Shown here piece after piece: positions 1,975-61,370 of a DNA stretch of 64,000 nt. Location of the stretch: the NCBI GenBank assembly GCA_964017155.1, contig OZ024861.1, positions 33,959,193-34,023,192 of the forward strand, in the 5' to 3' direction. The translations under genes and the position numbers were made by a program. The notes under the pieces were generated by a model. It saw nothing but the letters and a program-made list of their open reading frames with translations. It did not search any database and had not been told where the DNA came from. The stretch's first letter is position 1; each line of letters begins with the position of its first letter. The DNA is from Oasisia sp. SBJ-2009. Taxonomy: Eukaryota; Annelida; Polychaeta; Sabellida; Siboglinidae.

Positions 1975-2224
1975 TCAGCTCGTAGCAGACTACCGCTACC
2001 AGGACCTGTGAAGATTCCAATATCTGAACGTGTGCTGAACGTTCTACAACACCTGCAGGAGGACCTGTGGCAGCCACTATGATCAAAGAAACGACGACTG
2101 ATCCAGTGTTTTCACGTATTCTGCAGTACGTGTTACAACATTGACCAGCGATAAATACAGCTGAAGAAACTGATGCCGTTGACGTTGGATGTATCCTGTG
2201 TTGCACGAAAGTCATCGTACCCAC

Positions 2225-3160
2225 AATACATCGCTCCAAGATGATGGAAGAACTACACGAGACACATCCGGGCATTTCATACATGAAAAATATATAGAAA
2301 TATTATGTGTGGTGGTCTTCTATTGATACACGTCTAGAAACGAAGGTGAACACTGTAATTCATGTCAGCTGAATCAGCATGCATCAGCTAAGGCACCCCT
2401 CCATTCGTGTGAGTATACAGTAAATCCATGGTGTCGACTGCAGGTAGATTTTGCGGGCCCTTCATGGGACGCATGTCTCTTTAAACTTGTTGACTCACAT
2501 ACCAAGTTGTTGAAAGTGTTTCAGATGCAGAGCATAACGAGCCGAAACACAGTTGAGGTCTTGATTTCCACTCATAGTCTGCCGCATTGTATTGTGGGTG
2601 ACATCGGCCAATGTTCACAAGTGACAAGTTCAGTGAGTTCGCATTTGCCAACGGCATCCGGTATATCTTCGCGGCATCCTAACATCCGTCAAAAAATGGC
2701 TTAGCCGAGGGAGCTGTTCAGTCATTCAAGGAAGCCATGAAACGCATGCAACCTGCACCATTGCAAACGTGCTTGACGGGATGGCCTGCAAACTATTGGC
2801 CAACACCACACACTACCACGAATCGTGGGGAGCGGTATTTGCCTGTGTCTTTCGGAAGAGACACTAAAAGCCGGTGGTCCCTTCTATCTGGTGTCTACGC
2901 CATGGGAAGTAAAAGATCTCACACAGGGAGTAAATCTTAACCTGTAGTGGACTCACTAATTCTATAAAAGGACAACTCATGCGCTAGCCCAAGTTTGGGC
3001 TGTTTGGCGGACTCCACCTGACACCTGAAACCTGAATTATTCGCCTGTTGAAATGTTGCTTCGTCGGTGTACAAAGTCGAGATTTGACTTGATTCGCCCG
3101 AATGCGAGACTTAGGATAGAAGAGAAGCAGATGAAGCAAACGCAACAGCTTGATGACATG
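2225..3160 (+). pseudogene. Gypsy integrase and C-terminal linker (broken)
   Basis: ELHETHPGISYMKN (about 2248-2290) is the His-containing zinc-binding start of a Gypsy integrase. VWWSSIDTRLETKV follows, then VDFAGPFMG in pieces, LLKVFQMQSITSRNTVE (2507-2560) and NGLAEGAVQSFKEAMKRM (about 2695-2755), the motif with the third catalytic acid (Glu of LAE). RFDLIRPNARLRIEEKQMKQ (3080-3140) is the typical linker beyond the integrase core. Frames change repeatedly, so this is a relic. Confidence 0.8.
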
Positions 3161-4030
3161 ACTTCACAGCCGGACCAACATGGTTATCTGGAGAACTTAT
3201 CGAACGCATCGGTATCGGTCACGGCTCAACATTCCGATGATCGTATTGTGCGTAGTCAGCGAGATTATAGACTGATTTGAGGGCACAACCAACCTATGAA
3301 TGAACTGGGTGTATTCCCTACGACGACGGAGCATCGGAATGATATTCCGACAACACCGTCAATCGTCTCGGAACCAGTAAACATTGATGCTAAGACGACT
3401 AGAACTGTGAGTACTCCTATAAATATATACACATCGGCAGCGATAGTTGAGCATAATTCTACGTGTGCACCAAGCAAACCAGAATGTCGTGCACAGCAAT
3501 CACCAAGCCCAGTGTGTCATTACCTTACCCGATTAACTCGAGACATTCCTTCTGCGAGATTTGATCTTTGACGCACCGCCTTCATATCCTGCACAATCCT
3601 CATGTGCCCACGCTTTGCATTCCCACATTTGATCAATTTCTCCCGACGTTTGCTATCCGAAAAAAAGCTCGCTTTAGAAGTCGATTTGCTGTTTGTGAGT
3701 TGTCGCAATGGTTTCGCATACTTCAACTTGTTTCCCCTCGTGCTGGGTGGGCAGTTGTTCGTCATTAGGCTACCTTTTCTAGCTTTCATTTTAAGTTCCA
3801 TTTCTAGTCTGTATCGGCTGAGTGTGATGATGCAGACCTAGGTCGGTGGCTTTTTCTGGGTGTTTGTCTGAACATTTTAGGAATAGTGACACTTATGGTC
3901 GTGATGTGGAGAGCTGAGGTCCTCTGACTTCTTTGTGGGGATCCCACTTTGCCATCGGCATTTATTGACAAATCCATGTCTAAGTCTTTACTGAGCAAAC
4001 ATATGCTCATATTATCGCCATGGGGAGATA
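3161..4030 (+). other. Probable 3' tail of the Gypsy element; no intact gene
   Basis: This stretch follows the Gypsy integrase linker and has short open frames only, such as one ending RLTRDIPSARFDL near 3570 that resembles the Arg-rich pol C-terminus of such elements. The run ATGGGGAGATA at 4019-4029 could be a polypurine tract. If so, the hAT element at 4039 inserted at the start of the Gypsy 3' LTR, and the sequence after 16629 would be the rest of that LTR. This is inference. Confidence 0.35.
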
Positions 4031-4038
4031 ATTGTAGG
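4031..4038. repeat. Left copy of 8-bp hAT target-site duplication
   Basis: ATTGTAGG here is repeated exactly at 16622-16629, directly outside the two ends of the hAT element. An 8-bp duplication is the hallmark of hAT insertion. Confidence 0.92.
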
Positions 4039-4054
4039 CAGTGCTGGGATGTAA

Positions 4055-4205
4055 CGAATTACATTTACTTCGTTACATTACTTAAGTAGTTTTTTTAATC
4101 TACTTGTAACGAAGTACATTTTTGGGGGATAATTTTACTTGTAACGAAGTACTTCATTTTTTATTTTTTTACTTTTTTACTTTTTTTACTTTTGCGTTAC
4201 TTTGA
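4055..4205. promoter_or_regulatory. Left subterminal repeat cluster of the hAT element
   Basis: Repeated GTAACGAAGTAC-like and TTTTTTACTT motifs follow directly on the left terminal repeat and mirror the ACTTAAGTA-rich cluster at the right end. In hAT elements such clusters serve as transposase binding sites; that role here is inferred. Confidence 0.5.
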
Positions 4206-4409
4206 TAGACATACATCGTTCGTCGTCGGCCGTGGAGCGACAGCGGCATTGATTTTCCGACTGCCGTTAATTGGGCCTATCAGCCGCCTGGGATTAACGC
4301 GATCCGACCTCAAATCTCTTTGATTGGCCATCCCGTTGCACGGCTTTGTTTTGAATCAAAGTCGGTTGGTTTGGTTCGTGTCTATCTCACAACCGACCGA
4401 GACGTTGAC

Positions 4410-4613
4410 ATGGAAGTTGTAGTGAATATCATCGAGAACGGCAGAGACGAGAAAGAGAAACCCGAACATCCTTGGCCACACTTAAATAAGATGTTTCGCC
4501 TGAAGTCGTATCAGGGAAATAGCATTACGTTCGCGTGTTTGCTATGCGCACCGAAGCACGTTGAATGTTCGGCGTATCCAAATTCGTCGTCGAATCTGAG
4601 GAAGCATGTCGAG
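4410..4613 (+). CDS. hAT transposase exon 1: BED zinc finger
   Basis: The 68 codons start at ATG 4410 and end before GTAAGT at 4614 in phase 0. HPWPHLNKMF holds the aromatic residues at the start of a BED finger. CLLC supplies the Cys pair and SSNLRKHVE starts the His part. The second zinc-binding His arises only after splicing, where HVE joins RKHP from the next exon at 11925. The finger binds DNA in the nucleus, probably at the element ends. Confidence 0.85.
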
Positions 4614-4923
4614 GTAAGTCACATTTTATATATGGGCGAAACAATGTAGTATTAAGGTACTAAACTACTAATGTATTACATGTTGGCAAAGTTGTATAAC
4701 TTTTATTTCAACGCCAGCGGACAACACGCCGAGGACTCCGACCACATCGCTATCGTAAACTAGTAGTACAGATTTGTTTACTTAAGAAGTTTCGTTGAAC
4801 AAGGCGTATAGTTAATTTAGGATGACTGGTATATCTGTTGTGGTATATTGTGCCTAAGAGAATGTATAGATAATAAATAGGTCCGTTCTTAACTCAAAAT
4901 ATCGAATAATAAGTCACGTAGAT
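4614..4923. other. hAT intron 1, first part; nothing recognised
   Basis: AT-rich intron sequence follows the donor of the BED exon. I see no coding similarity or repeat structure before the fold-back element at 4924. Confidence 0.5.
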
Positions 4924-5018
4924 CATGACCACGTGCGCTCGCGTCTATAAATTATTTACTCACTGACACTGTCTGCGTATATATAATATAAGTGTGTGCA
5001 ACTTCAGCGTCCCGCCGA

Positions 5019-5088
<70 letters not shown>

Positions 5089-5140
5089 GCAGTGTCAGTG
5101 AGTAAATCATTTATAGACGCAAGCGCACGTGGTCATGACC
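4924..5140. mobile_element. Fold-back MITE with (TA)n loop
   Basis: The left arm (about 4924-4975, starting CATGACCACGTGCGCTCGCG) is the near-perfect reverse complement of the right arm (about 5088-5140). The loop holds unrelated sequence and a TA run at 5021-5085. It has no coding capacity. The arms are about 52 bp with a few mismatches. A target duplication is not evident. Confidence 0.75.
5021..5085. repeat. (TA)n microsatellite
   Basis: About 65 bp of uninterrupted TA repeat lie in the loop of the fold-back element. Confidence 0.95.
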
Positions 5141-5439
5141 GTATTCTAATAGCCTCAGCGCCTCGGTAATAGGCGGCCATGTTGGAATTGTTAATCTTGT
5201 TGACGATGAGGACGTTTATCAATCTAAAGCCATCCTTGACTGTATTACTATTGAAATAAAACCTGTTATCGCTAAACTGAGTTTTGAGATATGTATTCTC
5301 TACACAGGTTAACAGTTTTAAACTTAGCTCACTACAAATGTGTACTATGCGGGTCTATGCCTTACAAGTGTGGGTGGTATAGTCAGAAATGTGTAGCCCT
5401 ACAAATTTGCGTATCTCGGTCCGTGTATTAAAACGTAGT
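5141..5439. other. hAT intron 1; nothing recognised
   Basis: No coding similarity, splice exon or repeat was recognised between the fold-back MITE and the long-inverted-repeat element. Confidence 0.5.
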
Positions 5440-6280
5440 TAGTCGGGGCGCACGGGTCCAAATTTTGGAGGTAGTGGACACCTCGTGCTATTTTTGGTTG
5501 TCGTGTATTTTATTAAACGTCAAACCCTCCCGAACAATATTCCAGAGGGCAACCTCCTCAAATCGGTGTACCTCACTCCGAAAATTGCGTTTATATCCAT
5601 GCCCTTAATGGCCCAGTTGTATACATTTCTCTTTCCACATTTTCACAGTAACTGTATAACAACACATTTATGTGTTGTATCAAATAATCAGGAATGACGA
5701 GAACTATTATTTATGGCAATAGCTTTTTGATTCATTTATTTTTCAAGATGCCAGATACAAAACATTGGACAAAATAACGATAAATCAGTTCGGTTTCGCA
5801 GTTGACATCACACAACAGAAGTTATATTTACCTTAATATGTAATCAATATACTTATGTAATATATCAAAATGATGTGCATTCAATCACCTACTGAATAAT
5901 GCAAAGCAATAGTAAAATAGTGCTACGTTATACGTAATCACGAGCCAAACATCTACCCAACCCCCTAAGTGTTGCGCAATCGTGACGTGACGCAAATCGG
6001 AGTCGATTTCATTGATTGTATCATTTTTGCGTTCCTTAGGATAATATACACTATTAAAGACAGAGTATGGATGCATAATCTACTTCTGGTTATTAATGCG
6101 ATGTTTGTTAAGACAACATAAAATTATGATAACATTATTCGAAAATGAAAACATAACAAGGTGGTATTCAATCACATCTTAAAGATTGTTCTGAGTCACC
6201 TGTGTCACTCTGGTCACAGCCATTGTTTTCAACAAGAGTCCGAACAGGTATTACTCGCCTACATTTGGTATCGTTCCGTT
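5440..6280 (+). repeat. Left long inverted arm
   Basis: This arm pairs with 8740-9587. Diagnostic shared blocks include the GGTGTACCTCACTCCGAAAA block near 5566, GTTCGGTTTCGCAGTTGACA near 5790 and GTTGCGCAATCGTGACGTGA near 5975, each found as reverse complement in the right arm. Confidence 0.85.
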
Positions 6281-7790
6281 TGCACTTGCAAGCAGCACAA
6301 CGCGGCACTTGGCATTTAGCGCAAGAACAATTACAAGGGCATTTGCTGGCGACACGTAACTTGTATACCATTGTGAAAGTTCTGGTAAAGGCGGCACCGT
6401 CAAAGATACTGGTTCCAAATGTGTGGAACCCGTCTTCCAACCGATATCTAATAATTTCTCCTCCATCTTCAAGTGAGTCTCTTTCAGCACTGCTGTCAAC
6501 CTCAAGCCTTATTGCCTTGACGCATCGATCCGTTTGACTCAAACAAAGCTTGCGGTACCTTAGAACATTCATATTCTCCGATGGTTTCCTCAAGATTGAC
6601 ATTTTCCCCAATACCTTTCTGATAAAGAAGGCGTATCAGCATGACAACTTCATTGATCAGATGCTACGTCTGCTTCTGCAGCACAGTAAGATGTTATTGA
6701 GGATGCAGTTCTTCAAATATGCTGTCACGTACCTTTTGGACTTTGCGTTGTCATTCAAATATTCCTGGAGCTCAGTCTTGCAAATATTTTTCACAGTTTC
6801 CAGAGTTGTCATGATAGTTACAGTGGCTCACTGTTTCGTGGCAATATTTAGTATGTTGCTGGAGTCTACCGTGACGGGATTGATCATGTGCTGTTTTTAT
6901 GCATGCTTGATTGATCATTTGCTGGTTTCCATCTTCGTGGGATTGTTAGACTGCAGATGGTTCATCACTTCTTTGAAATGGAATGATACCTCAGATACAC
7001 AGGCTTTGTGTAATGCTATTTGGTTCGAACTTAGCGTCCAGGGGTATTTATGTAAGCCCACTCGCACTTTCCTTCACATCTATGCTTTATGTCTGCCCAT
7101 GAGCTATTTCAGAAGTGATACATTTGAATGACTCAGCTTTTTTCGCACATCATATTGACCTTTCGTGAAGTACTGATATACATATGGTGCTGGGTTCTTC
7201 AGGTTGTTCATTTCGTTTAGTCACATTGGCAGCGAATAAATGTAGTTGTGGTGACCAGCAGCAACAACAAATGGGAGCATGTTATTATACTAAAACAAAT
7301 GTTCCCAATTGCCCATTTTCCCATTGTTCAAATGCACCCGTGCCTCCCGTAGTCATTTGTGTTCAAAACCTTTGTTAGCCGTTCCTTTCTTACACAAACC
7401 TGTTTCTATAAGGATAAGACACCACATAATTTTTCCAAATGCGCCCATAGCGTTTACAGTGAGATGAAACTACACACATGACAATAAGGTGCCAATGTCA
7501 TCATCAGGGGAAGCTGGCTCCCGTAGCCCATATGAAATATCGTGCAAAGCCTGATCAGCCATAACTACTGTGTGTTTCACCCCAAACTTATTGGCCAGCT
7601 TTGTTGCATGTTCTAAGCGGATCTATTTGAACAGAATGGATCATTAAACCATATATAAAGCATGTGGCTGGCACTGTTGACGCCAGTGTTGTGTAGAAAG
7701 CATTCCAACATTGATAGTGGTTGCTTCCGAGCTCTACTTTCTTTATGGATGACAAACGGCAAAATTGCCATGCCACAATCATCAACTGAA
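6168..7790 (-). pseudogene. Decayed protein gene with Cys-rich tail, multi-copy invertebrate family
   Basis: Read on the minus strand with several frame changes, in order: FGVKHTVVMADQALHDISYG (about 7590-7530), REPASPDDDIGTLLSCV, FHLTVNAMGAFGKIMWC, KMGNWEHLF, MLPFVVAAGHHNYIYSLPM, FHFKEVMNHLQSNNPTKM, CSKVPQALFESNGSMRQ, and finally the Cys cluster CPCNCSCAKCQVPRCAACKC before a stop at about 6168. I recognise this order from a large family of repetitive, uncharacterised invertebrate proteins ending in a CXC/tesmin-like Cys tail. Its function is unknown to me. A relative lies at 58680-59795. The match is from memory and should be tested by profile search. Confidence 0.6.
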
Positions 7791-8739
7791 ACTATTGATT
7801 ACATATAGGTTGCAAATATATAGTCCTCATCTTTACAAGTAATCTGGCTTTAAGCTTTTCGCACAAAGAAAAGTAGTGTGGTTCAATTTGAGAAGGTATG
7901 GCGCTCGACAAAAACAATTCAGTACGTTATGATGATAACAGTGCGAAATTCTTCGTCCTTGCCGTCACCAAATTGTTATCTTCAACAATCAAAATAGCTT
8001 ATGCAGACGATAAGTTACCGTTGTTTAGACATTGTCAAATATAGTGATGTCACATACCATATAATTGGTAATCATAAGTGTCCGTTGTGTTTATTTTGTT
8101 AGTTTCGTATTTGTTGTCGGTAAAACACCGTTGACACCAAACTAAGTTAAAATGACTGATACGCTGCAAAACATGTCATTCAAACATGAACACATACCTC
8201 ATGTAGTTGAAAACAAGAATACGTTATATTTAATTTACTTATTAGACTTTTTATATATTCAAGTTATTCCAGAGATGATGTTAAAATCTAACGTCAAACC
8301 AAAATCGGGTGGAGAAGTATACACTGTATGTTGATTCTAGAACAAGTGCTTTTCAAATGTATTTTACAATTGTATGGTACAAATCAACCGAGAAATGAAT
8401 GGGGATACCTTTGATATGTTCACTCATTATTTAGCTTGAATATGTAGTAAGGTGACTACGGTACATTTAAATGAAATCGACGACAAAACGGAAATGTTTT
8501 TCTACTTATTCTTCAATTGTTTGTTTCTCGTTGCCTTAAAATATATACATTTTTATAATATATTTGTGGTCTCTATTCCTCTCACCATTCCGGATATATT
8601 TTGGTACAGAGACTAGCTAATTTCATTAAATAAACCATGAATATTTCATAATTAGCCATTGTGACTTAACAGTCATTCAGACACCTTCAGGCCTGAATTG
8701 AAGTTTAATTTCCAAGTGCCGTGTTGTGTTGCTTGGCCA

Positions 8740-9587
8740 TACGATGGGAAAGATATCAAATATAGGCGAGTAATACCTGTTTGAATTCTTGTTGAAAAAA
8801 ATAGCTATGACAAGAGTGACACAGATTACTAAGAACAATGTATAAGATGTGATTGAGTAACACCTTGATGTGTTTTTTATTTCGAATAATGCGTGTTATC
8901 ATAATTTTATATTGCCTTAGCAAACATTGCATTAATAACCAGCAGTAGGGTATGCATCAGGACTGTCTTTACTAGTGTATTATTACACTAAGAAACCCGA
9001 AATTGATACAATCAATGAAATCCACTCCGATTTGCGTCACGTCACGATTGCGCAACACTTAGGGGGTGGGGTACATGTTCGGCTCGTGATTGCGTATAAT
9101 ATAGCACTATTTTACCACTGCTTTGCATAATCCAGTAGGAAAATGAATGTACATCATTGTGATATATTACATAAATATCTTGATTACATATTAAGGTAAT
9201 TATAACTCCTGTTGTGTGATGTCAACTGCGAAACCGAACTGATTTTTCGATATATTATCCAATGTTTTGTACCTGGCTTCCTAATAAATAAACATATCAA
9301 TACGATATTGCCAAACATATTAGTTCTCGTCATTCCTGATTATTTGATACTACACTTAAGTATGTTGTCACATATTTACTGTGAAAATGTGGAAAGAGAA
9401 ATATATGCAGCGCGGCCATCAAGAGACCACATAAGCCTGAATATAAATGCAATTTTCGGAGTGAGGTACACTGATTTCAGAGGGTTGCCCTCCGGAATAT
9501 TATTAAGGAAGGTTTGTAGTTTAGAAAACGACAGGGCAACCAAAAATAGCACGAGGTGTCCACTTCGACCCCCGTGCGCCCCGACTA
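8740..9587 (-). repeat. Right long inverted arm
   Basis: This is the reverse complement of 5440-6280. It includes, on the plus strand, the mirror of the Cys-rich gene's 3' end near 8770-8850, already diverged (Cys and Lys codons changed), so the arms are not freshly duplicated. Confidence 0.85.
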
Positions 9588-9799
9588 TGCACGAATAACA
9601 GTTGGAGCCTAAAAAATTCAAAGATAAACTGAAAAAGTAAACAAACAGCGCGTGCACGTAATTAGCCCGATTACATCACATGCCTGAGTTGTATATCACC
9701 ACCGCCTATCGATCCTGTAGGCTCCCCATTTTACTAGTTATTCCCATTTTGTGTCAAAACATTACGTCAATCCAAAATGAGGGGTGACGTATATGTTAG

Positions 9800-10295
9800 T
9801 TCAAAAACATGTGATGTGCTGATACATTTTACAATGTCGTGGTATATAGCAACAGAGGAATGAATGGGGATCATTTTGGTATGATAACCATATATTTTGA
9901 ATATATATTAAGAGAACTACGGTAACCGTTACATGATGTCGATGACGAAACGGAAGTGTTTATTTTAACATATTGCTGAATCTGTTGCCTTAAAATGTAC
10001 ATTTCAATAAGATATTTATTGTGTTTATGCTACTCTGCAATACGAATAGTTTGTCATAAAACTTAGCTTTGTAGCCCTAAACAAACTATGAGAAAAACAA
10101 ATTGCAATTGTGACTAAAGGGCCATTCCGGCACCCGATACGTCTGAATTTAAGTGCGATTTTCGGAGTGAGGTACACTGATTTCAGAGGGTTGCCCTCTG
10201 GATTATTGTTAAGGAAGGTTTGAAGTTTAGAAAACAACAGGGCAACCAAAAATAGCACGAGGTGTCCATTTCGACCACCGTGCGCCCCGCCTAAG
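9800..10295 (+). mobile_element. Internally deleted relative of the long-arm element
   Basis: Positions about 9820-10145 resemble 8345-8695. The sequence then jumps to the terminal ~155 bp (10138-10292), which matches the right end at 9430-9585 closely, including GGAGTGAGGTACACTGATTT and CCGTGCGCCCCG. This looks like a deletion derivative whose other end is lost or lies unrecognised between 9588 and 9800. Confidence 0.6.
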
Positions 10296-10522
10296 TACCT
10301 TTCGATTTGATAACGGTGTTATCATCGTATTGATTTACTGAATTGTGACGAATTGTATAGACCGGTAACTGCTAGTTGTACTTCTGAGTCCATATATGTA
10401 TATAACAACGTCCCATGTCCATTTCTGAGGTCCAGGTATCTTGTATTGTTATTAATTGCAAAACTGTATAATAAACCTTTACTGCTTTTGGCTGAAAATA
10501 GTTTTCTTACATAATTGCCTGT

Positions 10523-11592: not shown

Positions 11593-11924
11593 GTTATGGA
11601 ATAATTTTTTTTTATTTATTAATACCAGTATTGACAAGGTAGAGGTAGTTGGCAATTATTAATTATAGTCTAGGTTAGGCTTTTTATTTGATCATGATTA
11701 CAACATAGATGCTATTTTAATGATGTATTTCATCTGTGCATGTTTCGGTTTGACTGATGTTATTGTTAACAGTCTGAAGTCTCGTCATGACATTTAAAGC
11801 TTACATTATTCAGTGTTTACAGATATTGTCTATTTCCAGTGACATTCTGTAGGTAGCCAGTCACGCATCATGTCAGCATACTCACTAGTCATTCCTGGAG
11901 CTCATTTTACACCTTTCATTCCAG
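11593..11924. other. hAT intron 1, last part
   Basis: Ordinary AT-rich intron sequence leads to a pyrimidine-rich CCAG acceptor at 11921-11924. Nothing else was recognised. Confidence 0.5.
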
Positions 11925-13728
11925 AGAAAGCACCCTGCCCAGCGGTGTCGCTACATTGAGCTGGTATCAGGTAAGCGGAAACTGCCTGCTGCATCTGACG
12001 AGAAGCCGACGAAACAGCCGAAACTGGAGTGGGCAAAGTCGACCAACGTGTCCCAGGCAAAGGTGGACACACTGGTGCTGAATTTTGTGACGGAAGGCCT
12101 GCTGCCATTCGGCTTTGTCGAACTGCCAGCATTCAAGCAGCTGGTTGTCGGTATGCAGCCAAACCGTACGGTCATGTGCCGCCTGACTCTGAAGCGTCGA
12201 CTGCACGAGCGTGTGCAAACAATGAAGGCGAACGTTGTAAGTGCAATGTGCCCACTGCAATTTGTTGCGACGACAACCGACTGCTGGAGTGCTCGAGGTC
12301 GAGCATACATCGGTGTGACAGCACACTGGATTAACACTGAGACGCTAGAGAGAAGGTATGTTAAAATGTTACTGTTAGTTAAAATTACTTTATTCTGTTT
12401 ATTCCGCATACATTATATTACACTTGCATTATCATCGTACTAGGAATGTACTTTTTGTCTATAAAATCGTTATATGCAGCCTGTAAAGGTATATCTTAAG
12501 TGTAACGCCCTTATTTAAATAGTATTTCAGCTGTTGAATTTTATGTACAAGTATTAATTGTAGTCTCAATTAACATTTACTAACGATTTAATTGTCTAAA
12601 TGAATAGGCACGTTGGTTATTGATTAAGCACCATAGCCTATTATGTGATTCTGTCGCTCTATGTCTAATGTATACTGCCATATTATCGATGTAATACTAC
12701 AATTGTTTTCAATTTACTAGTATATCAACTTATTTCGTATGAAACAATTATATTTTTACATAATTATGTTGCCAGCGACTAAACAAAGTTATATGAATAC
12801 CACATTTTATTCAAGGTCAGCCGCCCTAGCATGTCGTCGTCTGAGAGGCTCACACACCTTTGATGTGTTGGCTGGTGCGCTGGAAGACATCCATTCGGAG
12901 TACGGCATTCGGCAGAAGGTGACAAGAACAACAACGGACAACGGTTCTAATTTCATTAAGGCCTTTTCGGTGTTTGGTGTCAGCCCGACGACCGAAGATG
13001 ACCAGAGCGAGTTAGAGCTCTGTTTAGGTGGGTAATTACATGCATGCTGTAGAACTTTTGATTTGACCCTAACTAATAAATACTGGCTAAATATGTTGAA
13101 GATTATTATTGTGAAATCAGTTTTTATTTTTTACATACCATTTATGATATAGCCATGTGATGACACAAGTATTTTAAAGTACCTTTGAATTAAATTTGGG
13201 TAAGTACTCTTAACTCACCTTGGCGTCTACTTTGAGGATGTTGACAGTGTACTCAATGACAATTTACTATGCTATTGAATGCAGAAAGTTATGTACTGTA
13301 ATTCCTTTTTACTTTTTGATAAAACAAAGTATTCGGAATTGTCTAGGTGATGGCGTCCGATTTGAAGACGTGGCCAGCGTGCTGGACGACGATGACTTCA
13401 TCGAATTACGGCTGCCGGGTCATCAGCGATGTGCCTGCCACTCCCTCAACCTGGTCTGCACAACTGACGCCCAGCATGCGGAAGACAACACAGGGTATAA
13501 AAAGTTATCCAGGTCGACATTTGGGAAGTGCCAGGCCATCTGGAACAAGGCCGGAAGGTCAGCCCTGGCAGTTGAGACCATCCAGGACACCTGCGGCCTG
13601 ATGGTCATTCGCCCTGTGCCCACAAGATAGAATTCGGTTTTCATGGCGGTCGAGCGGCTTGTCCGCATTGTCAATGAGAAAGGGGAGGAGGCACTGCACA
13701 CGGTGTGCAATGAATTTGACATTGCAAA
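11925..13728 (+). pseudogene. hAT transposase exons 2-4: catalytic core
   Basis: Exon 2 (11925-12355) follows a CCAG acceptor and carries a Lys-rich linker, then FVATTTDCWSARGRAYIG, the first catalytic Asp region. Exon 3 (12816-13027) has CRRLRGSHTFDVLAGALED and TTTDNGSNFIKAF, the second catalytic Asp. Exon 4 (13347-13728) has LPGHQRCACHSLNLV (the conserved Cys-His motif), FGKCQAIWNK and, after the TAG at 13628, NSVFMAVERLVRI. Only that one stop interrupts this core, and removing it restores the family's TRWNS motif, so inactivation looks recent. Confidence 0.87.
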
Positions 13729-42340: not shown

Positions 42341-43300
42341 ATTGATAGTTACCTGCCTGGGATGAATAATTTATTATTTTTAGAAATTATTTTAAATATC
42401 AAATCAATTATCTATTCATATATTTATCTTAATAAATGTATTATTATAAAGAATGTTTTATTATTGTAAGGCATTTTATGTGATTTTTATTTTACTAATG
42501 TTTTTATAGAGACCTTGTATTTTAATTACATGGGGTAGTAACATTTTTAGTGGCATTTTATAATTTGTTTTTTATTTTATGTACAATACTAATTCATGTA
42601 CTGTATAATCTTATAAGAAATAATATTATATTTTATTTTAATGAACTATCGATAAACCAAAGACTTCCTTGTTCGCTTGCTCTCTGGAGCTAGGCTCCAG
42701 GCGGCAACCTTGTTAAACCTTGTCATTGAACACTGGTGGCATGAGGTCAACTTGTGTTCACTTATTGCTGATAGGGGTTGGCAACAACATCTAACCAAGA
42801 AAACATATTACTACATTCAAAGAACTTTCCCTTAGGTTTTTGTCTTCTGAATTACCGAAACTATAAACAAAATATAAAATGAAAAGCATATGTTCATGCA
42901 GCCCTTTTATCGCTTAGTGGAACTAGCTAAGCAACTTGGATACATCAATTGTTTCGGTTTTCTGAAACGTATAATGTTTACACAGATTCATCAAGTGTCA
43001 TTACATTATTGATCTTTACGTACTAATTATTACAACGACTTGTTTATATATATTAAATTAATTATTATGTCATAGCAAACGATATCAAATGTATTTGTTT
43101 TTATAAGGTATTTATCTTTGGTGTATTTTCTATATGCACCTAGGGTGCTGTGAACTGTATTGAATGTTACATGGCACAAATTAATCATGATTTGATTTGA
43201 GATTAGGTATGATTAGTGGTCCCTGCTATGTTGCTCATGGTCGCTGCTGTAGCAATGCTTAGCAAAAACCCTGATGATGCATTAATTTGCTGTTTCCCAG

Positions 43301-43588
43301 ATCCTTTGCCTCCTACAAACCTGGAGGTTCAGACAGCGTCAACAACAACAGACAGTGTGACAGTGACCTGGTCCTATGACAGCACCAAGTCATTCTGTGA
43401 GAAGTGGAAAGTGAAGTATAAAGTGAAAGGCACATCTGATACCAGTGAGTTGACCACAAGCAATGTAAACGAGCAAGAAATGACCATTCCAGGACTGACA
43501 CCAGGAAAGACCTACACCATCAGTGTGTTTGGAGTCACCACAGGTGATGTCATCAGTCAGACGTCTGTTGACAAGCACGCCACTGTTA
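43301..43588 (+). CDS. FN3 domain 7 exon (A-type)
   Basis: 288 bp between CTGTTTCCCAG and GTAAGT, phase 1-1. It opens DPLPPTNLEVQTASTTTDSV, then VTWSYDSTKSFCEKWKVKYK (core Trp and a single Cys followed by EKW, the A-class signature) and LTPGKTYTISVFGV. The intron sequence just upstream is also open in frame from an ATG at 43216. Confidence 0.93.
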
Positions 43589-44044
43589 GTAAGTATCCCA
43601 ACTGAATAGGATGCATAGGCAAATGCAGATTATATTGGTGACATTAAAATATAGTTTAGAAAGATGTTAACCTGTCATTAGGCATTTGGCCAATATTGAC
43701 AGTGTCAATTATGATTTAAATTTGTTTTCATGTCACATTTATCCACGGGTCTGCTTATGATACTAACATTTTGAAGGTGCACAATGCACAATTTCAGAGT
43801 AGTTGTACAACATCCAGTCCAATATCAAACATATCTATGGCTATGTTTAGATAGATCGGGCATAAGATTGATTAAAATCGATATTGCATGTAAACACTTA
43901 ACATTGAGCTCACAGTACTTATGTCACTGATCTTATTAAAATAGTTACCTACAGATGCCTTGACTTATTACTGTGATATCCTTGTGATATACAATTGATT
44001 GAATTGAATGAATTAATACATATTGCCACTCTCTATTTCCACAG

Positions 44045-44314
44045 AGCCATCTGCAGTAACTGATCTGAAAGCAGAAGCCACAGACAGCTCAGATGTCACA
44101 GTGAGCTGGACACCAGGTACAGGCATTCACCAGAACCCATTCCAACTGAAGTACCATGGTACACATCACGCAACTGACTGGTCAAGTGTCATTTCTTCAG
44201 CTGACTCTAAGGAAACAGTGACTGGACTCTTCCCTGGCGACACTTACACATTCGAGGTGAAGGCTGTCAGTGGGACTGAGTTCAGTGCTGAGGAAACAAC
44301 TACAGCAACTATGT
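44045..44314 (+). CDS. FN3 domain 8 exon (B-type)
   Basis: 270 bp, phase 1-1; the donor is GTAAGT at 44315. EPSAVTDLKAEATDSSDVTV, then SWTPG, FQLKYHGTHHATDW, and the tyrosine corner LFPGDTYTFEVKAV define the B class. It pairs with the A exon 456 bp upstream. Confidence 0.93.
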
Positions 44315-44507
44315 GTAAGTTGCAGCAGAACCTTTATATAATTGCTACTAGCTTACTGTCAGAGGATTATAAGCAAACACAAGGTCAATCAACAAAAATA
44401 TGGTATGAGTAACAATCAAATATCTGTAGTAATGTATATGGATAACTTACATAGATGTAAGTACATCTTAATATAGAAGAAAATATTTGTGGCACTTACA
44501 CAAGAGA

Positions 44508-44865: not shown

Positions 44866-46041
44866 TCTGGTGCTAATTGTAAAATAATATTAATTATTTT
44901 TTGAAATTATTTTAAATATCAAATACATTATCTATTCATATATTATCTTAATAAATGGATTATTATAAAGACTTTTGTATTATTGTAAGACAGTTATGTG
45001 TTTTTTGTTTTACTTATGTTTTTATAGAGACCATGTATTTAATTACCAGGGGTAGTAAAAATTTTAGTGGCATTTTATAATTTGTTTTTTTAATTTTATG
45101 TACAATACTAATCCATGTATAATCTTATAAGAAAAAATATTATATTTTATTTTAATGAACTCTCGATAAACCAAATACTTTCTTGTTTGCTTGCTGTCTG
45201 GAACTTGACTCTAGGCGGCAACCTTGTTAAACCTTGTCATTGAACACTGGTGGCCCGAGGTCAACTTGTGTTCACTTATTGCTGATAGGGGTTGGCAACA
45301 ACCTCTACAGAATCTACATAATATGTATTGATTACATCATTCTGTTTTGTATTTTTTATTAGATACATTTTGTACTACTTGAACTATCGACATGACCTGC
45401 CACATTTGTTAGCACAAAGTAACTTCATGTTTATTTATTTATTTCTCTTTTGTTCACAGGCATGCTTACATATACAAACAATAAACACGTTTCTAGAGAG
45501 GCAGATAATTCATAGGTGTAACATGAAACAAGAACACTTATTACTACATTCAAATAACTTTCCCTTAGGTTTTTGTCTTCTGAATTATCGAAATCATCAA
45601 CAAAATATACAATGAAAAGCATGTGTTGATGCAGCCTTTTTATCGCTTAGCTGAATTTGCTAAGCAACCTGGATACATCAATTGTTTCGGTTTTCTTAAA
45701 CATATAATGTTTACACAGATTCGTCAAGTGTCATTACGTTATTGATCTTTACATACCAATTATTACAACAAACTTGTCTATATATATATATTAAATTAAT
45801 TATTATGTCATAGCAAATGATATCAAATATATTTGCTATTTCAAGGTATTGATCTTTGGTGTATTTCTTTTTATATGCATCTAGGGTGCTGTGAACTGTA
45901 TTGGATGTTACATGGCACAAATTGGTAATGATTTGATTTGAGATTAGGTATGATTAGTGGTCCCTGCTATGTTGCTCATGGTTGCTGCTGTAGCAATGCT
46001 GAGCAAAAACCCTGATGATGCATTAATTTGCTGTTTCCCAG

Positions 46042-46329
46042 ATCCTTTGCCTCCTACAAACCTGGAGGTTCAGACAGCGTCAACAACAACAGACAGTGTG
46101 AAAGTGACCTGGTCCTATGACAGCACTAAGTCACTTTGTGAGAAGTGGAAAGTGGAGTATAAAGTGAAAGACACATCTGACATCAAGGAGTTGACCACAG
46201 ACAATGTAAACAAGCAAGGAATGACCATTCCAGGACTGATATCAGGACAGACCTACACCATCAGTGTCTTTGGAGTCACCACAGGTGGTATCATCAGTGA
46301 GATGTCTGTTGACATAGATGCCACTGTTA
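46042..46329 (+). CDS. FN3 domain 9 exon (A-type)
   Basis: 288 bp, phase 1-1. Very close to domain 7, with changes such as SLCEKWKVEYKVKDTSDIKE and LISGQTYTISVFGV (Pro to Ser in the corner loop). The same in-frame leader-like sequence precedes it from an ATG at about 45957. Confidence 0.93.
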
Positions 46330-46840
46330 GTAAGTATCCCATGAATATGTTATATGGACAAGTACAACTTATATTAGTTACATTAAAATATGTTTTAAAA
46401 GTTGTAAATTGTCATTTGGAATGTCCATGCATAAACAGAGATGCATTCAACTAGGGTAGACAGTGTCAGTTATGACAAACATTTTGTTCACATCACACAT
46501 ATGGTGACATTTCTACCAGCAACTAACACAGTTATCTAAAGCTGATGATGCTAACTTTTTGAGGATGCACAATGCACAATTTCAGTGCAGTTCTTTTAGA
46601 ACTTAACCAACATCCAGACACATTATCAGTACACATTATGTTTAGATAGATCGGACGTAACAGTTATTAACATCTACCCTGCATGTAACACCACACATTG
46701 AGTTCATACTACTTATGTCATTGATCTTTTAAAATACACTGTAGTTTCCTGTTTGACTGATTGTTTGACATTTTACTGTGGTATCCATATTATATACAAC
46801 TTATTGAACTAATACATATTGACACTCTCTATTTCCACAG

Positions 46841-47110
46841 AGCCATCTGCAGTAACTGATCTGACGGCAGTAGCCACAGACAGCTCACATGTCAAAGTGA
46901 CCTGGACACCAGGTACAGGCATTCACCAGAACCCATTCCAACTGAAGTACCATGGTACACATCACGCAACTGACTGGTCAAGTGTCATTTCTTCAGCTGA
47001 CTCTGAGGAAACAGTGACTGGACTCTTCCCTGGCGACACTTACACATTCGAGGTGAAGGCTGTCAGTGGGACTGAGATAAGTGCCGAGAAGACAACTACA
47101 GCAGTCATAT
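46841..47110 (+). CDS. FN3 domain 10 exon (B-type)
   Basis: 270 bp, phase 1-1, acceptor TATTTCCACAG. LTAVATDSSHVKVTW and the shared FQLKYHGTHHATDWSSVISS identify it as the duplicate of domain 8. It ends at GTCATAT before GTAAGT. Confidence 0.93.
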
Positions 47111-47302
47111 GTAAGTTACAGCAGTGCCTTTATATAACTGCTACTGGTTTATTATCAGGTGATAAAAAATCAAACTCAAGGTCAGTCAACAAAAATATGA
47201 TGTGAGTAACAATTGAATATCAGTTACAGTGTGTATGGATAACTTACATAGATGCAAATACATCTAGATGTAAATATTTGTGTTACTTACACGTTCAACG
47301 AG

Positions 47303-49749: not shown

Positions 49750-52700
49750 TGAGAACTGTTTTGATGGGGCGTGAAGCCAGTCAGGACAACTCAGCGACCA
49801 GTGTCCTGGTCTGACTGGACTTGCACAGAAGTAACACAACCAAGGAAAGGGACCTTGGTACAACGATGTTGTCTACCTGTATGAAATACAATTCATTTAT
49901 CTGCAGCGATGACGTAACATAATCCGCTGGAAGTACGTGGTGACCCTAGTGTGACAATTTAATTTGATAATTTTGTGTTTGCATTTTGATGAACAATTAG
50001 TGTATTTTAATTAGTGCATATACGATGCTATGGTATGCAGGTATTGCAGTACCTCAGGTATTGCAATACCTCAGGGGGTTTGACGCCCCTGCTATGCAGA
50101 GTTGTAAACCACTGCCTTGTGGTATAGGTTCTTGTCAGAACCGATGGCTAAGGGAGCAAACCCTAAACAGAAAACCATGTCACTGTGGCAGCATCAAGGG
50201 CGGTTGGTGTATGGAACTCCCAACATCTCTCGACCAGCCACTGCAGGGACAAATAGTTTGCGCCTGTCTTGGCATGTTCTTGCCGGTGTGAGACCTCTAT
50301 TTGTTCCCCGAGAGAGTGTCGCTAGTAACTTGCAAAAGCCAGCGGTACTTCAAAACGTTTTGCTAGCAGCTTCCATGAAATGTACAACTGCACGAAACAT
50401 GATACCGGATCGGCCGTCACCCGGGTTACCAAGGACCGAGCTGCTCGACCTCACCTTCCGTCGACAGTGGAAAATCAGCTAGGAAGAAGAAGACAAAGAA
50501 GACAACTACTGACAATAGGACAATGGAACGTCAGGACTCTCCTCGACCGAGAAGGAGCTAGCCGACCAGAAAGACGTACGGCACTAGTAGCAATGGAACT
50601 TGCCAAATATAACATCGACATCGCCGCCCTATGTGAAACAAGGTTCTCAGAGTCTGGTAGTCTCGACGATTTGGAATACTCTTTCTTCTGGAGTGGCAAA
50701 CCCGAAGGAGAAAGAAGGGAGGCCGGAGTGGGCTTTGCTATCAAAAAGGATATCATCACAAAGCTGACAGAAATGCCACGGCCAGTAAGTGACAGAATCA
50801 TGACGATGAGACTACCTCTGAGCAAGGACAACTTTGCTACAATTATCAGCGTGTATGCTCCGACAATGACAAACCCAGATGAAAACAAGGAGGCCTTCTA
50901 CAACCAGCTCGCAAGTGTGCTCAGGGGCATCCCTCGTACCGATAAGCTATTGCTGATAGGAGACTTGAATGCGAGGATAGGAAGAGACAATGACAAGTGG
51001 CCCTTGGTCATGGGCAAACATGGAATCGGGAAATGCAACTCCAATGGCGAACTTCTACTGGCTCTGTGCTCTGAGTTCGAACTGATAGTGACGAACACCA
51101 TGTTCAAGCAGAAGGATGAACGCAAGACCACCTGGATGCATCCTCGTTCCAAACACTGGCATATGATCGACTTCATCATCACGAGGTGTCGGGATAAGAT
51201 GGACATCCACAGCACCCGAGCCATGCGTGGAGCAAACTGCTGGACCGATCACCAGATGCTGAGGTCAAAAGTGGCTTTCAGAATACGACAAAAGCACAAC
51301 AGGCAAGGGACAAATAAGCCGACCAAGCTCAACACTGCAAAACTAAGTACCATCAGCCATGGGGAGAGTTTTGAGCAGGAGATGGACAGTGCTCTCGCCC
51401 ACTGGGAGGAGAAGGAAAATTCAACACCAGACGAGGAATGGGCAGCTCTGCAGCAGGTCGTGTACAACACAACCAAGACATATCTTGGCAAGCCAGACAT
51501 AAAACACCAGGAGTGGTTCGACCCCAACGACCAGGAGCTACAGACTCTTATGAGCAGAAGAGATCTAGCCTACCAGAGAGTGTTGCAAACCAGGAGCACT
51601 AGATCCACTACTGCAGCATACAAAGATGCCTGCAGACTGCTACAAAAACACACCCGTGCGCTGAAGTCAGACTGGTGAGAAAGGAAGGCAGTGGAGCTGC
51701 AGAGAGCTGCTGACAGTAACAACATGAAGGGCTTCTACAATGGACTGAAGGAAGTGTGGGGACCCAAAAAGAAGGGATCTGTTTAACTAAAATCAACAGA
51801 CGGAATGGAAACCTTCTCTGACAGCAAGAGAGTTGTGGCAAGATGGAGTGAACACTCCCAGAAGCTACTCAACATCCCTGGCGACATAGATCACGAAGCT
51901 CTGGACAACATCCCGCAGCGCATTACCAAGACAAGCCTTGATGAGATTCCAACTATGGATGAGATGGCTAGAGCAATCGCCAGCCTGAAAGATGGCAAAG
52001 CACCTGGAGGAGATGGAATTCCTGCAGAAGTATGGAAGCATGTAGGAGACAATCTGTTCAGCAGACTGCACCAACTAATCACCAATGCCTGGGAGATGGG
52101 TTCTGTACCACAAGCATGGAAGGATGCCAGCATTGTAACCATCTACAAGAAAGGTGATCGAACAGACTGTGGGAACTATAGGGGAATCTCTCTTCTTTCC
52201 ACACCAGGCAAGATCTTCGCCAGGATCCTCCTCAACAGACTATCTACCCACATAACACCATAGGTAGTTCCGGAGACACAATGTGGCTTCCGAGGTAACC
52301 GGAGCACCGTGAATATGATATTTTGTCTCCGACAACTACAAGAAAAGTGCATTGAGCAGGACATACCACTGTACATGGTATTTGTCGACTTCAGTAAGGC
52401 GTTCGATACAGTTGGGAGGACCGGACTATGGCAGCTACTGAAGAAGTATGGCTGCCCAGAGAAGTTCACAACAATGATCGAGGCACTACATACCGGAATG
52501 ATGGCGACTTTTAATGTTGGAGGGGAAGTCTCGGAATCGTTCAGGGTCACAAATGGGGTCAAGCAAGGCTGTGTACTGGCGCCCACGCTCTTTTCCATCT
52601 TCCTATCAGCAATGCTCGACAATGCTTTCCGAGACAAGGGGGATGGCATCTACATACAGTCCAGACAGAGCGCTGACCTATTCAACGCCGCACACTTCAG

Positions 52701-53565
52701 AGCGATGACCAAGACTACACGGATACTGATGAGGGAGCTGCTATTCGCAGATGACAGTGCACTGGTTGCACACTCTGCTGAAGAGATGCCGAAAATAGTG
52801 GATGCTTTCTCCGATGCGTCAAAGAAGTTCGGCCTGAAGATTAACATCAAGAAGACCGAGGTGCTGTACCAATCCAACTCTACAAGAACCCGAGAGGAGG
52901 ACATCATGGTTGATGGAAACAAGCTGAACTCTGTTCTAGAATTCACCTACCTGGGAAGCACTATATCAAGGGACGGATGCATTGTCGATGAAATACAGAG
53001 GAGGATGGCCAAGGCTAGTGCATCTTTCGGCCGACTACGCCAGAGACTCTGGAACAACCACCATGTGTCCATGCGGGTTAAAGGCAAGATATACCGTGCA
53101 ATTGTGTTGTCCACCCTCCTATACGGAGCTGAGGCCTGGACAGTGTACATACGACAGGTGAAAAAGCTGCATGCCTTCATGATGCGACATCTGCGTTCGG
53201 TCATGAGGATAACCTGGTTGGACAAAGTGACAAACAAGGAAATACTGGAACGGACAGGGCTGCCATCTATGGAAGATCTTCTGATCAGAAAGAATCTCCG
53301 GTGGACTGGACACCTCATGAGGATGTCATCAGACAGGCTACCGAAGCAGGTTCTCTACTTCCAACTGTCTTCTGGTCACAGAAAGAGAGGGCGCCCTCGT
53401 ATCCGGTTCAAAGATACCATCAAGAGAGCCCTGAAGCTGAGAGACATAAAGATCGACTCCTGGACATCACTCTCACAGCAGAGAGACAAATGGAGAGCAA
53501 GAGTCAAATGGTGGAAGCAGTCTTTGTCGCTTCGCGACCGACAGCATGATGATGATATACGATGC
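49750..53565 (+). mobile_element. Nearly complete RTE-type LINE
   Basis: This ~3.8 kb non-LTR element lies in the intron between domains 12 and 13. It has a 5' region of about 600 bp (exact start uncertain), one long endonuclease-RT frame, and a short GATGAT-type 3' tail near 53546-53558, as RTE elements have. A plus-strand frame at 50117-50482 with some coding look may belong to the 5' end or an upstream ORF. Target duplications were not found. Confidence 0.82.
50380..53565 (+). pseudogene. RTE endonuclease-reverse transcriptase, one frame with three stops
   Basis: The protein starts around LLTIGQWNVRTL (about 50506), the endonuclease/exonuclease/phosphatase fold, with CETRFSESG (catalytic Glu), SVYAPT, LIGDLNARIG (Asp-Leu-Asn) and the terminal WTDHQMLRS (Asp-His). 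RT motifs follow: GKAPGGDGIPAEVW, ASIVTIYKKGDRTDCGNYRG, VFVDFSKAFDTV, NGVKQGCVLAPTLF and LLFADDSAL (the catalytic F-A-D-D). The C-terminus has LRWTGHLMRM and KRGRPRIRF. The frame is continuous apart from TGA 51676-51678, TAA 51784-51786 and TAG 52261-52263. The TGA most likely replaces a Trp codon. Confidence 0.88.
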
Positions 53566-53691
53566 ACCCAGTTTTCATCAACATACTGTATTATCGCAGC
53601 TAGCACAAACCAGAGCACTATTTTGGCTGCATCAGTGATATTTTGCTTGCACTACCAAATAACTTGCAATCGCAAGAAAAATCCAATGTGA

Positions 53692-59795: not shown

Positions 59796-61370
59796 ACATA
59801 TATATAATCATAATCGTCACATTTCTATAGCGTTGTTCCAAGGTTCCTTGCTCACAGCGCTGAACAGAATGTGCTTGTAAAAAGATCAGTCTTTAATTTT
59901 ACTTTAAATGCAGCAGTGGTCATAGAAGACAATGTCAGATGCTGCGGTAGTGCATTCCATAGACTTGCGGCTGCCACGCTGAAAGCTCTGTCACCCCAGT
60001 GACGCCTTGTGCGTGGCACACACAATAAACTGTATTCGCTGGAGCGCACCGACCTAAACGGCTGGCGTCGGCCTTCACATTGTTACATGTAGGCAGGCGA
60101 TTGACCATTCAGTGCTCGGTGAGTGAGTAGCAGGATCTTGAACTCAACTCGCACCACTATCGGCAGCCAGTGCAACTTCTTTAGCAATGGTGTAGCATGG
60201 CTATATCTCATAGCGCTATCGATCAAGCGGGCTGCCCAGTTCTGTATTTTCTGAAGCCGTTGCATTTGCATCAGAGGCAGTCGATAGAGCAGTGCATTGC
60301 CAATAGCCAGTCTGTTTGTGACAAATGCATGAACAACTTGCTCTGTTGCTGCTGCTGTTAGATACCGTATGAACCTCGAGATGTTGCGGAGGTGGAATAT
60401 GGCTGACCTGCATACAGTAGTCACGTAGGACTCCATCGTCATTTCAGCATCAAACTGCATACCAAGATTACGAACACAGCCAGTCACCCTAACCACACAG
60501 TCACCAACACGTAACGCTTGCAGCGTCATTTTCTTTCGCTGTTGAGCTGAACCGAATACGATTACGTACGTTTTATAATCATTCAACTTCAAGGAGTTTG
60601 TCTTCATCCATATCCTGATTTCTGTCACCCGTTGTTCAATGCTCTCAACAGCCGCGTCACTGTCCTCCTGATGGGGTTTCACTGTGATGTAAATTTGCGT
60701 GTCGTCAGCATAAAAGTGCGACATCAAGTTGTTGTTCCAAATTATTTTCGATAATGGTGCCGCATAGATAGAAAACAACTGCGGACCAAGTACGGAATCT
60801 TGAGGAACCCCACACGTAAGGGGGCGAGCAGGTGACGTAGAACCATTAATGTGGGCATCTTGAACTCTGTCACTCAGATACGATTTAAACCAATTAAGTG
60901 CAGTTTGGCCCACTCCAACATCATGTAGCAATCTATGCAACATGACATTGTGGTCCACAGTATCAAATGCAGCCGACAAGTCAAGTAGTAACATGATGAC
61001 AGTGTTGTGGTTGTCAATTGCACGCAGGATGTCATTCTGTACACAGACAAGGGCCGTTTCGACGCTGTGGTTTGGCTTGTACGCAGACTGGTTGGGCACG
61101 CAGATATTACACTTGTGACCCGACAGTCTCGCGGCAACAACACGCTCTATTGTCTTTGACGAGTATGGCAGATTGTACACAAGTCTGTAGTTGTTCAAGA
61201 TGTCCTTATCTAGGCCTGGCTTCTTGATTATAGGTCTTACGTCTGTTCTCAGAGACATGTTTACAATGGTGTAAGAACAGGTATAATGTCATGCGCACAG
61301 TCTCTAAGCAGCCATGTCGGTATGGGATCATTCTGCTAGTCTGTGTTTTAACCTGTTTGAGTCTCGCACT
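59796..61370 (-). mobile_element. CR1/L2-group LINE, minus strand, largely open RT
   Basis: The 3' end at about 59796 directly interrupts the Cys-tail pseudogene. A 391-codon open frame (61258 down to 60083) contains IIKKPGLDKDILNNYR, IERVVAARL, LLLDLSAAFDTVDHNVML, TCGVPQDSVLGPQLFSIY, HFYADDTQIYI (catalytic Y-A-D-D), LNDYKTYVIVFG, VRNLGMQFDAEMTM and KKLHWLPIVVRVEFKILLLT. After a frame change comes CVPRTRRHWGDRAFSVAAAS and LWNALP (60049-59900). The GVPQGS motif has Asp for Gly. Upstream, DPIPTWLLRDCAHDIIPVL (about 61330-61275) is separated by a stop and a deletion. Confidence 0.9.

Follow-up and report, generated by a model that had tools for sequence, protein, structure and literature searches.

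A long-armed repeat with a dead gene in the annelid Oasisia, likely a non-autonomous Academ-type DNA transposon

Structure of the element and its gene

In a 64,000-bp stretch of the genome of Oasisia sp. SBJ-2009 (Annelida, Siboglinidae; contig OZ024861.1 of assembly GCA_964017155.1, positions 33,959,193 to 34,023,192; hereafter the window, whose positions are used below unless another locus is named), we describe a repeat copy at 5440-10293 that carries a decayed gene of a protein family with a cysteine-rich (Cys) tail. The 17-mer TAGTCGGGGCGCACGGG is present without mismatch at 5440-5456 (plus strand) and at 9571-9587 (minus strand), just as the initial annotation had described its perfect 17-bp ends, and a third copy of this terminus, with two mismatches, lies at 10277-10293 (minus strand), with a chance expectation of 0.02 matches. 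The long form of the mobile unit measures 4854 bp (5440-10293), both boundaries being common to the window and 16 other loci, and is flanked by an AGT target-site duplication at 5437-5439 and 10294-10296. The outer terminal inverted repeats occupy 5440-5599 (plus strand, starting with the 17-mer) and 10137-10293 (minus strand). The right terminus reads TAGGCGGGGCGCACGGT in the window; of the 16 other long copies, 15 have TAGTCGGGGCGCACGGT, while that of L010 is one base shorter. Within these boundaries a left arm at 5440-6311 (plus strand), whose inner end contains the 3' end of the gene, pairs with a right arm at 8706-9587 (minus strand), which ends in the internal 17-bp terminus. The pairing consists of ungapped blocks, the four main ones being 65-443 nt long with 82-89% identity. 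Inverted arms of about 840 bp had been claimed; the arms are real, but their length is about 870-880 bp. The ungapped pair and the translations further show an inverted second copy of the 3' end of the gene at 8706-8856 (plus strand), mirroring 6168-6318. Beyond the right arm follows a tail segment (9588-10136), in which 9752-10136 is about 68% (about 66-73%) identical to approximately 8279-8705, the stretch that adjoins the right arm on its inner side. In the tail as counted to 10293, the last 157-174 bp mostly resemble the 9587-type terminus at 87-93%, and the two direct terminus copies, 9414-9592 and 10120-10298, are 88% alike.

The decayed gene lies on the minus strand at 6168-7613, where the part from 7337 downward is placed by matches to a profile built from 48 of the family proteins found, and the part 7613-7338 by eye and weak matches. 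The best-preserved coding stretch, 7140-7337, corresponds to the helical part of a predicted DDE domain (profile 788-854, E 5.5e-15), and is followed by a coding remnant at 6502-6657 (profile 1015-1069, E 1.1e-4) and, at 6258-6451, by a GW motif and the Cys tail in different frames (profile 1404-1427 at 6451-6380 and 1435-1456 at 6335-6258). The last two matches are individually weak, with independent E-values of 2.9 and 6; all the profile matches in the window are colinear. These decayed stretches and the minus-strand cluster at 6335-6258 bear out the interior gene with a Cys cluster that had been proposed. In the family profile search the nuclease core (profile approximately 1100-1300) has no match in the window gene. 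Likewise, Pfam gives no match for the window read-through and its pieces, and a protein search with the read-through gives none.

Copies in the genome and the target-site duplication

On the whole, the 764-Mb source genome has the 17-mer at 391 + 439 places with at most two mismatches, against 18 + 14 for a reversed-pattern control, and the right-end version ending in GGT is found exactly at 182 places against 0 for the control. The ends in this genome read TAGTC[A/G/C]GG. Our sample of copies was drawn from 100 of the 830 places, on contigs C1-C4; the places listed include 24 plus/minus end pairs 1.9-8.5 kb apart, of which 20 were fetched and four on C3 left out. In 16 of the 20 fetched copies the same sequence continues beyond 9587, and with longer flanks their match reaches window 10287-10301, all having a terminus at 10293. 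An element ending at 9587, as originally delimited, is thereby ruled out for these 16 copies. The 3 bp outside both ends are identical in all 17 long copies (the 16 loci and the window), counting L010 with its right end placed one base earlier, whereas crossed left and right flanks of different copies match in 10 of 272 comparisons. When 4 bp of the copies' own flank pairs are compared, none of the 17 matches, and at 5 bp one does (L026, within an AT repeat). A and T predominate among the target bases (43 of 51). The repeat is DNA-transposon-like, as first annotated. The short target duplication expected for it is present, but consists of 3 bp of varying sequence and not of TA; since in the 17 long copies these varied duplications lie outside the terminal TA, TA as the target, as in Tc1/mariner and other TA-target elements, is ruled out.

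The other four fetched copies (L012, L014, L018 and L023) stop at the 9587-type terminus. Three of them, L012, L014 and L023, have each their own 3-bp duplication, while L018 shows no 3-bp match (tta/ata). These short copies bear on the origin of the tail. The long unit may be a composite: a short element (5440-9587) would have inserted at the end of a related one, and the right end of the latter (9588-10293) would since have moved with it as a single unit. We give this origin a little less than an even chance. It fits the independent duplications of the short copies and the low similarity of 9752-10136 beside the high similarity of the terminal part of the tail, as if the tail came from another subfamily. 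However, recombination between the two direct terminus copies explains the short copies equally well, and of the postulated host element no copy has been isolated. The composite origin concerns the tail only and is compatible with the interpretation of the whole element given below.

A gene dead before the family spread

For the comparison of stop codons we aligned 17 copies, namely the window, 14 long and two short ones; L009 and L010, which have large insertions, and L014 and L018 were left out. The mean pairwise difference among the 17 is 4.0% (0.6-7.2%). The window read-through from 7967 to 6168 has 22 in-frame stops, of which 11 are common to all 17 copies, and four more are present wherever the aligned copies have letters. 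The stop at 7292, inside the best-preserved stretch, is found in all 15 copies with letters there, while that at 7106 is found in 10 copies and that at 7223 in only two. Stops above approximately 7613 possibly belong to sequence outside the former coding frame. Since half of the stops are common to all copies, the gene was dead before the window family spread, and the element is non-autonomous. The spread of a dead element in turn requires a transposase supplied from elsewhere.

At a tblastn threshold of 1e-5 the gene is found in the window and in 12 of the 20 fetched copies, and is not detected in the other eight (L011, L014, L015, L017, L018, L026, L027 and L028). Copies with arms and no link to the gene would have spoken against the proposed element; eight such copies exist at this threshold, but those inspected are deleted forms of the window element, L017 and L026 for instance being without 7101-7490. 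Nor are the arms two independent insertions, because they recur together across copies. Three larger copies, from a check that left out a 6852-bp copy on C1, were rejected as gene-bearing partners. L009 (8450 bp) contains a nested insertion that brings a family member of its own, L010 (6594 bp) contains a long interspersed nuclear element (LINE), and the inner 5.3 kb of L078 (6763 bp) holds a 2.4-kb insertion and no open frame of 100 aa. The nested insertion of L009 (L009 positions 2016-6334), which lies inside a window-family copy, is 4.3 kb long, has long inverted arms of its own, and encodes in an open frame of 568 aa a distant Cys-tail family member with nuclease motifs and a Cys tail.

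The protein family and its gene-bearing elements

Relatives of the gene were collected with a query sequence representing a family common in invertebrates. It finds 967 proteins, many of the 120 listed being approximately 1,480 aa long, and a second protein search gives 729 matches in an overlapping set. Most of the listed relatives are unnamed, and the names given are hypothetical or uncharacterized protein, Tesmin/TSO1-like CXC domain-containing protein (two listed) and 5'-3' exonuclease, in agreement with the initial annotation, which expected a large family mostly annotated as hypothetical. Sources named among the matches listed include sponge, corals, anemone, sea spider, molluscs and fish. 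A pattern search gave 10 matches in prokaryote species genomes and 35 in viral contigs, and tblastn recognises no relative among them.

It had been suggested to look for nuclease or recombinase folds. The full-length protein of approximately 1,480 aa is predicted to have an RNase-H-type DDE domain, then a nuclease of FEN1/EXO1 fold with conserved acidic residues, and then the Cys tail. The models of the 1,480-aa proteins begin after the N-terminal 400-odd residues and are of low confidence in the Cys tail. Of the solved structures, Hermes (hAT) and RAG1 come closest in fold to the predicted DDE domain, and they likewise have a helical insertion ahead of the final acidic residue. Their duplications differ from the 3 bp here, being 8 bp for hAT and 5 bp for RAG, and neither is known to have a fused FEN-like nuclease, unlike the predicted family protein. 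A Foldseek search alone finds nothing significant for the DDE part. The predicted second domain shares fold and acidic positions with the FEN1/EXO1/XPG nucleases at approximately 9-16% identity over aligned residues; here it would be a domain of a transposon protein. When six family proteins are compared with Pfam, DUF6589 (PF20231) reaches at best 26.4 bits against a cut-off of 27 (E 3.5e-6, for P0002 and P0053), with two weaker matches and two without any, and precomputed annotations list PF20231 for P0002, P0053, P0152 and P0166. No mention of DUF6589 is found in the literature searched, which excludes most subscription papers.

A search of the source genome with P0002 gives 42 matches, and 30 loci were fetched with 1.5 kb on each side of the match. 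Among them, nine (L045-L049, L052, L057, L062 and L067) have a TAGTCAGGTC-type end, with one mismatch allowed, on both sides of the gene, 17 have one such end and four have none. All nine TAGTCAGG pairs, with the gene enclosed, show a 3-bp duplication. Therefore the gene does travel with such ends, and the proposal that the Cys-tail gene is bounded by them together with a short duplication is upheld. Among the genes at L045-L074, none has TAGTCGG ends on both sides; a single 7-mer of this form is present in L050 and another in L063. Three further gene copies (on C10, C14 and C1; L073, L075-L077, L079 and L080) have ends starting with TAGTCCGG. The gene-rich copies on C10 and C14 have both ends, span approximately 5.8 and 6.1 kb, and have terminal repeats of approximately 300 bp (95 and 91%); the C1 copy is without a right terminus. 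The open frame on C14 is 1273 aa, and for C10 and C1 the genome search gives frame lengths of 1460 and 1393 as column values only. In the other two subfamilies every paired copy tested except L018 has a 3-bp duplication, while C10 and C14 have no 3-bp match, which speaks against a clean rule.

It is hardly credible that the Cys-tail gene came from the host and was captured by an unrelated transposon. Beyond its presence in many animals we find nothing in support, and it is contradicted both by the predicted DDE and nuclease domains and by the nine other places in the genome where TAGTC ends with a 3-bp duplication enclose the gene. On the contrary, hundreds of unnamed or hypothetical proteins appear to be transposases, not host genes, by which invertebrate gene counts can be corrected.

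Relation to the Academ superfamily

The nuclease of AcademX is XPG-like, and the lineage reportedly goes back to Kojima in 2020. The family resembles AcademX in its 3-bp duplication, in a predicted DDE transposase, in a nuclease within the same protein (here by fold) and in elements of approximately 5.5-6 kb. According to PMC10045372, AcademX makes duplications of 3 or 4 bp and AcademH of 9 or 10, linked to the encoded nuclease and helicase respectively. A duplication of the AcademX type is found in 17 of 17 long copies, three of four short ones and nine of nine TAGTCAGG pairs, but in neither of the two TAGTCCGG copies with both ends, and a DDE transposase of RNase H fold with an element-encoded nuclease is predicted from the models. 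AcademH does not fit, as the pairs match over 3 bp and not 9-10, and the fold found in the part that was modelled is that of a nuclease and not a helicase. In addition, Academ is counted among the superfamilies with a DDD/E transposase in PMC9587614, and the bivalve expansion outlined in PMC10294476 comprises 100 curated Academ elements with a mean of 5565 bp, near the lengths of the C10 and C14 copies. Compared with AcademX by described features only, the window copy stands apart as a derivative that is dead and non-autonomous and has extended inverted arms.

Several points weigh against this assignment. The Academ features are taken from descriptions and not from Academ sequences, and Pfam names the DDE part only as DUF6589, just below the cut-off, a name found in no paper of the literature searched. 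The words Academ, XPG and transposase occur together in no paper of the literature searched. The gene family might be a separate, undescribed superfamily that resembles AcademX and gained the same target length and a similar nuclease independently, but we consider this unlikely, since a short duplication with a transposon nuclease is the AcademX layout, and the DDE class and the element length agree as well. Membership in the Academ superfamily (AcademX lineage) is only likely, because it rests on features and not on sequence. The group, initially suspected to be poorly described, is probably not undescribed but part of this known superfamily, whose 3-4 bp duplications and nuclease are stated in PMC10045372.

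Taken together, we hold it quite likely that the repeat copy at 5440-10293, with its AGT duplication and dead gene, is an Academ-type DNA transposon that was non-autonomous and owed its movement in trans to a predicted protein combining a DDE transposase with a FEN1-like nuclease. The DDE domain would cut at the TAGTC ends and join these 3 bp apart into a new site, the nuclease would trim strands, either at these cut ends or in the course of repair, and the Cys tail may help to bind DNA or partners. DUF6589 would hereby be tied to a testable DDE-plus-FEN1 design, in which the role of a flap-type nuclease in a transposase is open to mutation.

Origin of the long arms

The junctions of arms with genes were surveyed in 27 of the 30 loci with P0002 matches (L051, L069 and L073 left out). 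In a second subfamily, an inverted copy of residues approximately 1361-1491 is joined to residue 779 (P0002 numbering, gene oriented plus). This junction is seen in eight locus rows at six places (L049, L054, L057, L062, L064 with L066, and L072 with L074), the inverted copy starting at residue 1371 in L054 and being split in two in L066. All eight rows can be aligned over the 240 bp around the junction, showing that it was a single event that spread. L059 has a different junction, between residues 866 and 1397, and in the nested element of L009 the arms likewise extend into the 3' end of its own gene. In L045-L048, which keep more of the gene, the arms are approximately 440-560 bp, with no overlap between arm and 3' coding match in any of these four loci. 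In the window element, where both arms contain the 3' end of the gene, the long arms look like an inverted duplication that dead derivatives have gained. At C11:15840188-15843256 (L064, L066) the same gene stretch occurs twice, inverted, within approximately 3 kb, a palindrome-like arrangement of one derivative.

For the window family, repair after excision may have copied one end of the element, past the terminal repeat and into the 3' end of the gene, inverted onto the other end, and the crippled long-armed form, with its further tail 9588-10293, would then have spread. A similar case is Galileo of the P superfamily in Drosophila, for which PMC3573991 describes non-autonomous copies with terminal repeats extended by inverted neighbouring internal sequence. 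Like the window family, dead Galileo copies lengthen their terminal repeats by inverted copying; Galileo differs in belonging to another superfamily, in its 7-bp duplications, and in reportedly recruiting the stretch between terminal repeat and coding segment, while here the 3' coding end of the gene is included. The window family is therefore a further case beside Galileo. One might go further and suppose that the FEN/EXO1-like nuclease is integral to transposition and trims flaps on cut or folded ends, and that its slips on fold-back ends repeatedly remake one end as an inverted duplicate of the opposite one. Long-armed, gene-dead elements would then be a built-in product of this transposase class and not accidents, which we regard as a long shot.

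Other features of the window

Besides the element, a 184-aa open frame at 11889-12443 (plus strand) has no Pfam match and looks by eye, from its motif, like a hAT/ZBED-type transposase fragment. A LINE-type retrotransposon lies at 50329-53691 (plus strand), with an endonuclease frame of 449 aa (Exo_endo_phos 2.5e-10) and a reverse transcriptase frame of 475 aa (RVT_1 1.1e-23), and a LINE fragment at 60083-61288 (minus strand) has a reverse transcriptase frame of 401 aa (RVT_1 3.9e-26). In addition, several exon-like frames resembling fibronectin type III domains are spread over 24440-63788 (plus strand), the one tested giving fn3 8.1e-11 at 43213-43602. Near-duplicate frames are found at 43213-44412 and 45954-47205 on the plus strand, and together these frames suggest a host gene with tandem exon duplication.
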